Positions 7,351 through 11,141 of a stretch of DNA of 53,736 bases are shown in pieces. Below the pieces are notes generated by a model. It had not been told where the DNA came from. It did not search any database and saw nothing but the letters and a program-made list of their open reading frames with translations. The position numbers were made by a program, and so were the translations under genes. The DNA is from a virus: IMG/VR virus record IMGVR_UViG_3300045005_000056, positions 1 to 53,736 of that record; one strand, given 5' to 3'. Numbering within the stretch: position 1 is the first letter of the stretch; each line of letters starts with the position of its first letter.

Positions 7351-7644
7351 ATGGCGTTTCACACCGTGATCATGGATGCCCCGGACTCCGTCGCCATAGG
7401 CGCAGGGATCGGCGCTCGCAACCTGCGAGACAAGGCCATCATCATCAGCGGCACGTTCACCGCGACCGTCGTCGTCGAGGCGAGCTTCGACGGCACAACC
7501 TTCGTACGCGTCGGCCAAACGACAGACTTGGCGGCGATCATTCAGGTGCCATTCGCATGCCGCTCGCTGCGGATCAACACGACCGCCTACACCGCCGGCG
7601 CGATCAATGCGAACTTGGTCGCCGACAATCCCCGGACCAGCTGA
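7351..7644 (+). CDS. Small beta-rich virion-like protein
   Basis: 97 residues with no named family. The pattern is strongly beta (AIIISGTFTATVVVEASFDG, then VPFACRSLRINTTAYTAGAI), resembling small decoration or fibre-type proteins encoded around phage portals. It lies between terL and the portal gene and its stop overlaps the portal start (TGATG), so it is coupled to it. Two later genes (11175, 16636) have a similar size and beta-rich character, which may mean related roles in the capsid. Confidence 0.65.
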   Translation: MAFHTVIMDAPDSVAIGAGIGARNLRDKAIIISGTFTATVVVEASFDGTTFVRVGQTTDLAAIIQVPFACRSLRINTTAYTAGAINANLVADNPRTS

Positions 7645-10600
7645 TGGCCTCGAGCGTCATCGACCTAACCGGGCTCGACTCGGCCGCGCTGCGCAAGACG
7701 TTCTTCTCGCAGAAGCTCCCGCGCGCCGAGCAGTACCGCACGTACTTCGGTCGCATGCTCGACCAGGGTCGCATCGAGAACGCGTTGCGGCAAGCCGACC
7801 TCGGTCTGATGGTCGACCTGTGCGACCTCGAAAGCGAAGCGCTGTCACTCGACCCGCATCTCTCGGGCGTGCTGGGCAAACGCATCGGCAGCATCAAGAC
7901 GCTCGACTGGTCGATCGTGCCAGCGAGCGGGCCGGGCATCGACAAGCGACTCGCGGCTGAGATCGCGAACGAGCAGACCAACGCCTATAAGGCGATTCCG
8001 AATTTCATGGAGCGGCTCTACGACCTGGAGTGGGCCATCTACGACGGGCGCGCCGCGCAAGAGATTCACTGGGCGGTCTTCGCCGGTCGCGTCCGGTGGC
8101 GCCCCGTCGCGCTGTCGTGGCTTCATCCGCGCCGGCTGTCCTTCGGCAGCGAGCGCGAGCTGCGCGTCATCGACACCTTCAAGCGAATCGGCAACTTTCA
8201 AGACCTGGGATTCCCGATCCGCGACTACCCCGGAAAGTTCCTATGGTGGCAGCCGCGCATGTGGCGCGAGTATCCCGAGCGCGAAGGCATCGCGCCGCGC
8301 ACGCTCTACTGGACGTTCTTCAAACGCTTCGACTGGCGCATGCGGATGGCGCTGACGGAAATCTTTGGCTTGCCGTGGCGCATCGTCGAAACCGACAAAG
8401 ACGCGCCGATTAACAGCGAGCAACTCGACGCCGCGGAGATCGCGGCCGAGAAGCTCGGACAGGAATCGACGGCGGCGTTCGGCCCCGGGCAGAGCGTGAA
8501 GATCGTCACGGGCGGAGAGCACGGCGGCGACCTGATGAAGATGACGTCGGACGACGTCGACCTGCAGATGTCGAAGCTCGTGCTCGGCCAGACCGGCACG
8601 ACCGACGCGACCGGCAATCGCGCCGAGTCGATCGTGATGAAGAGCGAGCAAGACATCCTCTTGCAAAGCGACGCCGCTGGCATCAGCTGTCGAATACATC
8701 ACCAGCTCGACATACCGTTCGTCGCGCTGAACTGGGGCGAAAGCGCGCTCGACCACGCTGGGACATTCACGCTGAATGCGCAGCCGCAGCGCGACCGCAA
8801 GACCGAGTTGGAGCGCGTCGAGAAGGTGTTGAGCTTCGGCGTGCCCGTGCCGCTCGTCGAGGTGCGCGAGATAGCCGGCTTCCGCGCGCCCGAGCCGGAC
8901 GAACCCTATCTCGTCAGCAAGCCCGGCGGAACGGATGCGCTCGGCAACCCATTGCCGCAGAGCGTGTCGATCGTCGATCCGGAGGCTGGCGAGCTCGAAG
9001 CGGAAGGACTCGACGGTCAAGCCGACCGCGCCGCCGAAGAGTTAGCCGCGCTCGCACGCATGCCGCTCGTGCTCGAACACTACGGCCGAGCGCGCGCAGC
9101 ACACGACAAGATCATCGAGGCGTCCGGCATCACGCTGCCGTTCGGCAAGTGGGAGGACTTCGACTCATGCGTCGCCGATCATGTGAGCCGCGGTCATAGC
9201 GAAGACTCCGCGCGCCGAATTTGCGGCGCTATCCAAGAGAAGGTCGAAGGCATCGTGCGCCGCGCCGAAGAGCTGTCGCGCACCGAGCGCGCATTGCCAA
9301 TGACGCTCGCGGCAGCGCCGCCAATGCGCGCGCCCGGCAGCATCCACGGTGCGCCATCAGCGATCTTGGAGCGCGAGCTCGGCGCAGCCGAAGAAGCGAT
9401 ACGCAAGCTCGCCGACCGATTCGTCGACGCCGTGCCTACCGGCGAATCGAGCGCACCACGCATCCGCCGCGCAATCGATCGCGCGTTCGACAAGCTGCCG
9501 CTCGACGAGCTGGTCGACTCGCTCGAACGAACGGTCATGCGATCAGCGATGCTCGGCGCGCTCGATAGCGAATGGGAGGCGCGCGCAGACGACGAAGACG
9601 AGAAGGACAAGGCGATCGCGCCCGCGACATACTCGCGCGTCGAGCGCCGCTTCACACTCGCCGTTGATCCGCTGATCGACAGCTTCGTCACGAAGCCGTT
9701 CTCGGCTGCGGTCGACACTTTCATCGAGAAGAAGATCGTGACCCCGGACGTGTTCGAGCGCCTGTCGGCAGCGGCACGTCGGCGAGCGTTTACCGTCGCC
9801 GGCATGACGTCGCAGTCGATGCTCGAACAGGTCCACTTCGAGCTGGCGAAGTCGATCGGCACCGGCGGCGACCTACGCGACTTCCGCGCGACGCTGAGCG
9901 AGCGCTTGCGCGACAGCGGGTGGCTGCGGCCCGGCCCGCGTGAGGAAGCGCCGACACGCACCGGCTCGCCGTGGCATGTCGAGACGATCTTCCGAAACGC
10001 GACAGCCGGCTCCTACGCAAGCGGTCGTGATGCGCACATGCGACAGCCGGCAGTGATCGCGAAGCGGCCTTACTGGCAAGTGCTCACCGTGTCGGACGAT
10101 CGCCGACGACCCACGCACGGGCGAGCGCACGGCAAGGTGTTGCGGCACGACGATCCGTTCTGGACGCGGGCGCCGCTTCCGTGGGGTCACAACTGCTTCC
10201 TGCCAACCGAACGAATCGAAGGCAGGATCATCGGCGCGTCACGCGCGCTCTACTCGGGGAAGGCCATCGAGATAACGACGCGCAAAGGTCGTCGACTTTC
10301 CGTCACGGCCAAGCACCCCGTATTGACCGCGCAAGGGTTCGCCATTGCGCAATCGCTCCGCGAAGGCATGCAGCTCGTCTGCGATGCCTTCGAGTCCAGG
10401 GGTTCGTCGCTGCGGCTTGGTGCGCAGCACAACGAATACCAACAGCCAACCGTCGCGCAAGATGTATTCGGTGCGTTCGTGAAGTCGGAGCCAATTGCGT
10501 CGACCCAACCCGGTAGCGACGACTTCCACGGCGAGGCGGAGTGCTTTCACGGACACGTCGAGATTGTAGGGTCCTACCGGCAGCTGTTGTTGAACGACGT

Positions 10601-11141
10601 GGCCGCGCGCGCGCAGCAAGCAGGCGACCTCATCCTCGAAGACGCCACGTTTGGTCATCCGCTCGTAGTTGGTGCGAGCAGCACGAAGCCGCTCGTCGAG
10701 CGACTTCACGCGGCCTCGAGCGGCAACCCAAGCGGCTCCGCACTGGCGCTCGACGCGACCACGATCAAGGCGCAGCGCGGACCACTTCACGTGCTCCGCC
10801 TCGGAGCGGCCGCGCAGATGAACGCCGTGTGCGCGGAGACGATCGGTCATGGTTGGTCGCGAGACGTCGAGTTCATCCGCGAGCTGTTTGATCGAGATGC
10901 CGGCCTCGTATCGCTGGACGAGATCGTCGATGTTCGGGAGTTCGATTTTCTTGGGCATGTGTTCGACTTTGAGTCGGAAACCGGCCTCATTGTCGCATCC
11001 GGCATCGTGACGAGCAACTGTCGGTGCAGAAAAGTTAGCCGTTCCGACCGAGACGTCGAGCGGCTCGGCCTCACCATCAGTGATGGCTCAAGCTTGACGG
11101 GCCTACCTGATCCGGGATGGGATGGCGGCGCGCTCGGTTGA
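7644..11141 (+). CDS. Portal-MuF fusion precursor interrupted by an intein
   Basis: 1165 residues, about 890 after intein removal. Residues about 1-480 are a Mu gp29/DUF935-type portal (LSGVLGKRIGSIKTLDW, later GTTDATGNRAE). Residues about 485-560 hold a linker with a small module (FDSCVADHVSRGHSEDSARR). Residues about 600-850 plus the end are the MuF/SPP1 gp7 head morphogenesis domain (IFRNATAGSYASGRDAHM, then DDRRRPTHGRAHGKVL). The intein (851-1125) splits the conserved closing motif into WGHN and CRCRKV. The start at 7644 overlaps the upstream stop. In Mu the portal and F proteins are separate genes; fusion is less usual. The portal ring is the DNA channel and MuF is injected or lines the vertex. 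Confidence 0.9.
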   Translation: MASSVIDLTGLDSAALRKTFFSQKLPRAEQYRTYFGRMLDQGRIENALRQADLGLMVDLCDLESEALSLDPHLSGVLGKRIGSIKTLDWSIVPASGPGIDKRLAAEIANEQTNAYKAIPNFMERLYDLEWAIYDGRAAQEIHWAVFAGRVRWRPVALSWLHPRRLSFGSERELRVIDTFKRIGNFQDLGFPIRDYPGKFLWWQPRMWREYPEREGIAPRTLYWTFFKRFDWRMRMALTEIFGLPWRIVETDKDAPINSEQLDAAEIAAEKLGQESTAAFGPGQSVKIVTGGEHGGDLMKMTSDDVDLQMSKLVLGQTGTTDATGNRAESIVMKSEQDILLQSDAAGISCRIHHQLDIPFVALNWGESALDHAGTFTLNAQPQRDRKTELERVEKVLSFGVPVPLVEVREIAGFRAPEPDEPYLVSKPGGTDALGNPLPQSVSIVDPEAGELEAEGLDGQADRAAEELAALARMPLVLEHYGRARAAHDKIIEASGITLPFGKWEDFDSCVADHVSRGHSEDSARRICGAIQEKVEGIVRRAEELSRTERALPMTLAAAPPMRAPGSIHGAPSAILERELGAAEEAIRKLADRFVDAVPTGESSAPRIRRAIDRAFDKLPLDELVDSLERTVMRSAMLGALDSEWEARADDEDEKDKAIAPATYSRVERRFTLAVDPLIDSFVTKPFSAAVDTFIEKKIVTPDVFERLSAAARRRAFTVAGMTSQSMLEQVHFELAKSIGTGGDLRDFRATLSERLRDSGWLRPGPREEAPTRTGSPWHVETIFRNATAGSYASGRDAHMRQPAVIAKRPYWQVLTVSDDRRRPTHGRAHGKVLRHDDPFWTRAPLPWGHNCFLPTERIEGRIIGASRALYSGKAIEITTRKGRRLSVTAKHPVLTAQGFAIAQSLREGMQLVCDAFESRGSSLRLGAQHNEYQQPTVAQDVFGAFVKSEPIASTQPGSDDFHGEAECFHGHVEIVGSYRQLLLNDVAARAQQAGDLILEDATFGHPLVVGASSTKPLVERLHAASSGNPSGSALALDATTIKAQRGPLHVLRLGAAAQMNAVCAETIGHGWSRDVEFIRELFDRDAGLVSLDEIVDVREFDFLGHVFDFESETGLIVASGIVTSNCRCRKVSRSDRDVERLGLTISDGSSLTGLPDPGWDGGALG
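10194..11018 (+). other. Intein (Hint domain) inside the MuF motif
   Basis: 275 residues. Cys1 (10194-10196) begins block A (CFLPTERIEG). Block B is LSVTAKHPVLT with Thr38 and His41. The middle contains an FHG-rich stretch (DDFHGEAECFHGHV). Block F is GHVFDFESETGLIVASGIV, ending Ser-Asn275 before Cys+1. The penultimate His usual in inteins is Ser here, which is tolerated in some Hint domains. Excision would restore WGHNCRCRKV, the intact MuF motif. No LAGLIDADG or HNH motif is seen on this strand; the size above a mini-intein is explained by the antisense gene. Confidence 0.88.
10239..10958 (-). CDS. Antisense HTH + Vsr-like nuclease, putative homing endonuclease inside intein
   Basis: 239 residues read opposite to the intein, wholly inside it (45 bp and 60 bp from its ends). 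Residues about 8-45 form a helix-turn-helix (SIKQLADELDVSRPTMTDRL), then RGRSEAEHVKWS. Residues about 105-180 look like a PD-(D/E)XK/Vsr-type nuclease: FEDE (E108, E110), VVQQQLPVGPYNLDV (D134), LAVEV (E145), then ILRDGWLLVFVVL. This order matches free-standing Vsr-like (EDxHD-type) homing endonucleases known next to split inteins. No Shine-Dalgarno sequence or obvious promoter precedes the ATG at 10958. A long chance shadow is the alternative, but the domain order argues against it. Confidence 0.75.
   Translation of the reverse strand: MPKKIELPNIDDLVQRYEAGISIKQLADELDVSRPTMTDRLRAHGVHLRGRSEAEHVKWSALRLDRGRVERQCGAAWVAARGRVKSLDERLRAARTNYERMTKRGVFEDEVACLLRARGHVVQQQLPVGPYNLDVSVKALRLAVEVVATGLGRRNWLRLHERTEYILRDGWLLVFVVLRTKPQRRTPGLEGIADELHAFAERLRNGEPLRGQYGVLGRDGKSTTFARRYLDGLPRVERA

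Follow-up and report, generated by a model that had tools for sequence, protein, structure and literature searches.

The window analysed here, a 53,736-nt stretch of viral DNA from the IMG/VR virus record IMGVR_UViG_3300045005_000056, contains an intein inserted in the MuF region of a capsid gene. Very probably, this element is a mobile intein that keeps the gene for its homing endonuclease on the strand opposite its own splicing domain. Because the nuclease gene lies wholly inside the intein, a single unit of 0.8-1.1 kb would carry both functions. Judged from the sequences of related loci, this sense/antisense double use of DNA recurs in well over a hundred phages and is apparently the means by which the element spreads.

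The two reading frames lie in exact, codon-on-codon register: antisense position 3 pairs with sense position 1, and vice versa, and antisense residue n stands opposite intein residue 256-n. An earlier reading of this DNA (the original prediction) had described this pairing, together with a 239-codon minus-strand frame inside an 825-bp intein, 45 and 60 bp from its ends, and an ATG-initiated open reading frame (ORF) is found precisely there (Table 1). By length alone, the open antisense frame is not significant in this window rich in guanine and cytosine (GC), where the probability of meeting no antisense stop in 239 codons is about 0.06 from extein codon usage and other antisense ORFs of 255-547 residues are present. 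The significance of the frame derives from its homologues and its content.

Conservation of the antisense frame and selection on the two strands

A tblastn search with the window antisense protein matched 61 phage records, 45 of them at 80% coverage or more, and for nearly every match the gene on the other strand bore the annotation head morphogenesis, MuF or hypothetical; a different family member used as query matched 99 phage records. The antisense frame was open and unannotated in all 11 annotated regions examined in detail (Pseudomonas, Gordonia, Salmonella, Cronobacter, Vibrio, Haemophilus Aaphi23, Mycobacterium and Pantoea). Salmonella phage PK2 departs from this pattern, its antisense ORF being annotated, as a "hypothetical protein". 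Among 57 loci gathered by antisense similarity (the window included), with GC contents of 43-70%, the register is shared by all 57, no sense stop occurs, and the sense frame is an intein wherever its motifs are readable. Since this set had been selected on the antisense side, the query for a second set was restricted to sense-intein residues 1-67; it matched at least 600 stretches, and among the matches listed 592 were confirmed and 80 were kept. The antisense family lies opposite the intein in 79 of these 80 loci (hidden Markov model E-values 3e-9 to 4e-79), and no antisense stop interrupts the core in 77, loci at 44-50% GC included. The expected conservation of the antisense frame among MuF-intein homologues is thus borne out in both sets; antisense stops are not frequent in inteins collected by their sense sequence, and the exceptions resemble decaying endonucleases. 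The antisense family also matches two plasmid records, NZ_LN890657.1 (26911-27543; Candidatus Promineifilum breve), beneath an annotated phage minor head protein gene, and NZ_CP108975.1 (56975-57589; Streptomyces platensis), which are perhaps plasmid-like phages.

Substitution patterns point to selection on the antisense protein. As the initial broad alignment (A1) was too diverse to be scanned for patterns, closer subsets were used; all substitution and stop counts are uncorrected for relatedness. In close pairs, substitutions in the overlap peak at sense position 1, whereas those in the flanking exteins peak at sense position 3, as in the pair L005/L014, with 58, 11 and 28 changes at positions 1, 2 and 3 of the overlap and 97, 66 and 200 in the exteins. 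Amino-acid identity of the antisense product equals or exceeds that of the sense product in every listed pair (0.88 versus 0.73 in L005/L014). Along the intein, residues 1-15 and 263-275, which extend beyond the antisense ORF, are purely sense-like, position 3 changing four- to five-fold more than position 1; residues 67-240 are antisense-like, fastest at sense position 1; and block B (residues 36-48) and the stretch 109-118 are slow at all three codon positions. In loci with defined motifs, the stretch from block B to block F contains 0 antisense stops, whereas 487.5 would be expected given the sense amino acids and the codon usage of the exteins; for the 11 loci below 50% GC the corresponding figures are 0 and 121.7. 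In the window itself, the GC bias at sense third positions is weaker in the overlap (0.74) than in the N-extein (0.82), as had been noticed by eye in the original prediction. Taken by codon position, the substitutions show that the antisense protein is under purifying selection, as is the sense frame of the overlap.

Products and signals of the two strands

The antisense product is supported, by profile matches and structural models, as a helix-turn-helix (HTH) domain joined to a Vsr/EDxHD-like PD-(D/E)XK nuclease. In the window protein, the Pfam family HTH_7 scores above its gathering threshold and the MTES_1575 nuclease family below it (E 1.2e-4). Searches of the PDB with the single protein (phmmer) returned chance-level matches only and profiles were needed: those built from 12 and 46 antisense proteins matched 3hrl (NGO0050; E 3e-6 and 5.6e-8) and 3r3p (the I-Bth0305I catalytic domain; E 7.3e-6 and 1.3e-4), as well as HTH structures. 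Searches of PHROGs and NCBIfam gave nothing for this protein beyond weak HTH matches. AlphaFold predicts, at a mean predicted local distance difference test score (pLDDT) of 89.7, an N-terminal HTH followed by an alpha-beta-beta-beta-alpha-beta nuclease core, and the three best Foldseek matches are Vsr, I-Bth0305I (rank 2, probability 0.99) and again Vsr, with probabilities of 0.96-0.99. The HTH and the fold anticipated from the sequence are thereby recovered in the model. The window protein has the Vsr-like core with E108, D134 and E145; of the proposed pair E108/E110, only E108 is the conserved residue. D134 and E145 are invariant and Y131 and N132 nearly invariant in 102 antisense sequences. 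A histidine follows VAVEV by 3-8 residues in 92 of 100 homologues, but not in the window.

Many antisense endonucleases (L003, L006, L007, L008 and others) have two tandem HTH domains and reach 280-300 residues, others having one; the number of HTH domains may track target-site recognition. In the bacterial genome G047, contigs C218 and C224 (L140, L148-L152) carry long tandem HTH arrays, with open frames of 338 and 576 residues, that resemble the antisense DNA-binding domain.

On the sense strand, the insert has the marks of a genuine intein, in agreement with the original prediction: it is in-frame, opens with the nucleophile Cys1, carries the TxxH of block B (T38 and H41), ends in ...IVTSN (N275) followed by Cys, matches intein profiles and is predicted to form a HINT splicing domain. 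Its ends are modelled as a HINT fold with pLDDT of about 90-98, the best fold matches being solved inteins, and residues 148-223 are disordered, which limits the TM-scores (template-modelling scores). The Intein_splicing profile was matched in 34 of 36 relatives (best E 9.9e-13); the penultimate intein residue is Ser in the window and His in most relatives. Wherever a family could be assigned, the host genes checked belong to the MuF, Phage_min_cap2 or VG15 minor capsid families. The 1194-residue product of the window host ORF fuses portal and MuF, which in most relatives seen are encoded by two adjacent genes.

In the middle of the intein, sense F-H-G-D lies opposite antisense A-V-E-V. The motif DFHGD(G) occupies the same columns in 102 relatives, has no match in solved intein sequences and may mark a small sense subdomain. 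The proposal that it is a mere shadow of antisense VAVEV was rejected, as decayed loci retain DFHGD after loss of the antisense Glu. Selection probably acts on the sense motif itself too, because FHGDG is kept while the antisense Glu is lost through a sense-silent change of TTC to TTT.

The translation signals of the antisense gene are written in the complement of the C-terminal splicing region. In the start column of 102 homologues, M occupies 67% (CAT giving ATG) and V 20% (CAC giving GTG), the codon being the complement of the His in sense GHVYNL. Upstream of this start, opposite V-Y-N/D-L-Q/E, lies a Shine-Dalgarno-like sequence, typically GGAGGTTGTAGACATG, whose core is present in 79 of 93 loci; GAGG derives from a Leu codon, and this codon is CTC in 72 of 89 loci, against a background of 31.5% (nominal p 1e-21). 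The suggestion that the start codon complements the block-F His holds in so far as the ATG complements H255 ("GHVF"), but H255 is the conserved GH preceding the V-Y-N/D-L motif and is not taken as the classical catalytic block-F His. The antisense stop falls within the intein in 97 of 102 homologues, at a median of 24 bp from the intein's first base, and at nearly all loci the mobile unit therefore encloses the entire gene.

Table 1. Features of the intein-bearing locus, in coordinates of the window
Feature	Position	Strand	Remarks
Host gene	7557..11141	+	Single ORF with Portal_Mu domain (PF06074, E 1.5e-53) and C-terminal Phage_Mu_F (MuF) domain (PF04233, E 5.7e-7); interrupted by the intein
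Intein, 275 residues (825 bp), Cys1 to Asn275	10194..11018	+	Inserted between LPWGHN and CRCRK of MuF; PF14890 E 1.7e-4, TIGR01445 E 1.7e-4; profile and best fold matches to solved inteins
Putative antisense homing-endonuclease gene, 239 residues, ATG start	10239..10958	-	Wholly within the intein, 45 bp and 60 bp from its ends
Sense block B (TAKHPVLT)	10305..10328	+	Opposite antisense C-terminal QYxVIRG segment; all three codon positions slow; T38 and H41 invariant (102 sequences)
Sense DDFHGE (family motif DFHGD)	10518..10535	+	Exactly opposite antisense catalytic VAVEV; retained in sense upon antisense decay
Sense C-terminal splicing region (GHVFDFES...IVTSN)	10953..11018	+	Complement holds antisense start codon and ribosome-binding region
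Antisense start codon ATG	10956..10958	-	Complement of sense His255 codon CAT
Antisense Shine-Dalgarno position	10967..10970	-	AAAG in the window, weak; GGAGG, GAGG or AAGG in most relatives
Antisense helix-turn-helix, residues 10-43	10830..10931	-	HTH_7 E 1e-6; helices 10-18, 23-29 and 34-43
Antisense Vsr/EDxHD-like nuclease core, residues 106-178	10425..10643	-	Profile matches 3hrl (5.6e-8) and 3r3p (1.3e-4); fold matches 1cw0, 3r3p and 1vsr
Antisense Glu108, helix before beta-sheet	10635..10637	-	At least 90% conserved
Antisense catalytic Asp134 (GPYNLD)	10557..10559	-	Invariant, 102 sequences
Antisense Glu145 (LAVEV)	10524..10526	-	Invariant, 102 sequences

Proposed mobility, decay and alternative readings

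Several loci keep their splicing motifs while the antisense endonuclease is broken or shortened, and look like states of decay. L085 is a mini-intein over an antisense ghost full of stops, with the catalytic Glu changed to Lys; in L105, which shares the Glu to Lys change, six stops break the antisense frame; L123 has a single stop, close to the antisense C-terminus; and L118, without any stop, is a 183-residue intein whose antisense gene lacks the region between HTH and nuclease core. Intein-free alleles also exist. Many close relatives have an uninterrupted MuF site: in Salmonella phage FSL SP-101 MuF is contiguous, free of the intein and 98% identical over 200 residues, while UPWr_S4 carries the intein. 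The ES2 site is likewise empty in many relatives. Divergence of intein and host gene disagrees in both directions (L004/L056 and L003/L041); in L004/L056 the antisense wobble positions diverge by 0.05 and extein third positions by 0.45, the intein being more conserved than its host gene. Taken together, empty sites, divergence mismatches and decayed copies with splicing motifs are the traces that a homing cycle should leave. When 369 genomes (the class of G001) were searched for free-standing copies of full length, only the prophage copy emerged, along with partial matches confined to the HTH or the nuclease.

In the proposed cycle, the sense strand would be translated within the capsid protein, after which the HINT splicing domain would fold and excise itself. 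An antisense transcript would be made from a gene whose ribosome-binding site and start codon are embedded opposite the block-F region and which ends just inside the N-terminal end of the intein. The nuclease would then cut the insertion site of MuF alleles that are free of the intein, and these would gain the insert through repair from the copy that bears it.

Some points weigh against this proposal, above all for the window copy. Its Shine-Dalgarno sequence (AAAG) is weak, a sigma-70 promoter-like site was looked for near its antisense start and none was found, and it is without the downstream GGxWH histidine seen in most relatives; with the weak ribosome-binding site and the missing histidine, its activity is less certain than that of the family. 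Scanning IMG/VR with the window antisense protein as sole query turned up no relative, and as the copy has no close relative found, selection was measured on relatives and not on the window copy. The fold-search E-values are modest (0.035-0.1). In 51 pairs picked for sense similarity, sense positions 1 and 3 of the overlap change equally (0.38 and 0.37), with position 3 exceeding position 1 in the exteins of all 51, which is dual constraint and not antisense dominance. The two coding frames, selection on each, the fold, containment of the gene and the intein-free alleles are shown by the data, whereas expression, cleavage, target site and homing rest on inference.

The antisense frame could also be a non-coding shadow, held open and seemingly conserved by GC-rich codon usage and the codon-on-codon register. 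The register does favour open antisense frames at high GC, as the figure of about 0.06 and the longer antisense ORFs of the window illustrate, and sense blocks impose some antisense similarity (block B against VIRG). This explanation was rejected and is hardly credible, given the substitutions at the antisense wobble position, a stop expectation conditioned on the sense amino acids (487.5, with none found) and the low-GC genomes: the frame is open at 43-50% GC, yet the exteins of the same phages hold 93 antisense stops in 15 loci. Nor are the Shine-Dalgarno and CTC bias, or the HTH and nuclease fold matches, expected of a shadow. A more serious competitor, judged plausible but on balance doubtful, grants the antisense gene and denies the sense strand a role in the middle of the element, where residues 67-240 would be a passive linker needing only to stay open, with true dual coding just at the ends. 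The rapid evolution of these residues at sense position 1 and the disordered model at 148-223 agree with it, but every codon position of block B and of the DFHGD/VAVEV stretch evolves slowly, sense FHGDG is intact in L085 and L105 although the antisense Glu has become Lys through the silent TTC to TTT change, and the antisense HTH and C-terminal segments overlie splicing-domain sequence.

It is also conceivable, if improbable, that the antisense gene encodes a real DNA-cutting enzyme that does not home, for example a free nuclease for phage exclusion or attack on host DNA, or a DNA-binding regulator of the capsid operon. PADLOC matches, few and weak (mad1 in 4 of 46, HEase in 2 of 46), lean this way, and Vsr/DUF559 relatives include non-homing proteins (3hrl and DUF559-like chromosomal matches). 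Against such a role, all full-length copies seen sit in an intein, nearly every one starting and ending within it, the intein is polymorphic for presence at one site, inteins and exteins mismatch in divergence, and decayed copies keep their splicing motifs, as a homing cycle predicts.

Beyond the homing intein itself, a wider reading is held with moderate confidence: a large, ancient clade of phage inteins would form an obligate sense/antisense pair in exact codon register, in which GHVYNL doubles as ribosome-binding site and start of the endonuclease and catalytic VAVEV lies opposite DFHGD, the protein of each strand shaping that of the other. The overprinted homing intein as such would provide a conserved, natural example in which opposite strands of the same codons specify two unrelated folds, and one open to testing in many isolated phages. 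It would explain the possible mobility of capsid-gene inteins that have no in-frame endonuclease, and would mean that annotation overlooks a widespread endonuclease family. The loci (at least 592 candidate intein loci in one scan) would offer a rich data set on how double-coding constrains and co-shapes proteins, and decayed copies would reveal the homing cycle at the level of single codons, since the nuclease can be lost through a change that is silent in sense.

Comparison with known systems

Vsr-like endonucleases reportedly stand beside split inteins of "fractured genes", as Dassa et al. are said to have described in 2009. These endonucleases and I-Bth0305I (3r3p) share with the antisense family an HTH-type DNA-binding part and a Vsr-like nuclease core, but they are separate intron or intergenic genes, without overprinting on a splicing domain. 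DUF559/MTES_1575 nucleases (3hrl, NGO0050) share the core "GxYxxD ... VE" (profile E 5.6e-8) and differ in consisting of a single, free-standing domain with neither HTH nor intein. Large inteins with an in-frame homing endonuclease domain, such as PI-TliVMA (PMC8966425), likewise combine a HINT domain and a homing endonuclease in one mobile unit, occur sporadically at a conserved site and include decayed endonucleases. In these, the endonuclease is inserted in-frame, whereas here it would be a separate antisense gene over the splicing domain, with its own start and stop.

Concealment of a homing endonuclease in an alternative frame of a phage-gene insertion is shared with the ShiLan domain, a hidden, out-of-frame HNH endonuclease in a phage methylase (PMC11855218). 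That domain is described as read forward and lacking an intein splicing domain, whereas the window element, antisense, Vsr-like and within an intein, falls outside the ShiLan definition. Nuclear ribosomal DNA group I introns can contain homing endonuclease genes that run antisense to the host gene within a self-splicing element (PMC9548176); their host is a non-coding ribosomal RNA, hence no protein-protein double coding arises. In the literature searched, no antisense endonuclease over an intein splicing domain was reported, the search not having reached two possible prior descriptions, Gosselin et al. (bioRxiv 10.1101/2025.01.02.630785; actinobacteriophage inteins, "Non-Canonical Architecture"), which covers the actinophage database and is the likeliest to affect novelty, and Gorbalenya 1998 ("Non-canonical inteins"). 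As far as checked, the parts, an intein and a Vsr-like homing endonuclease, are known, and their arrangement is new.

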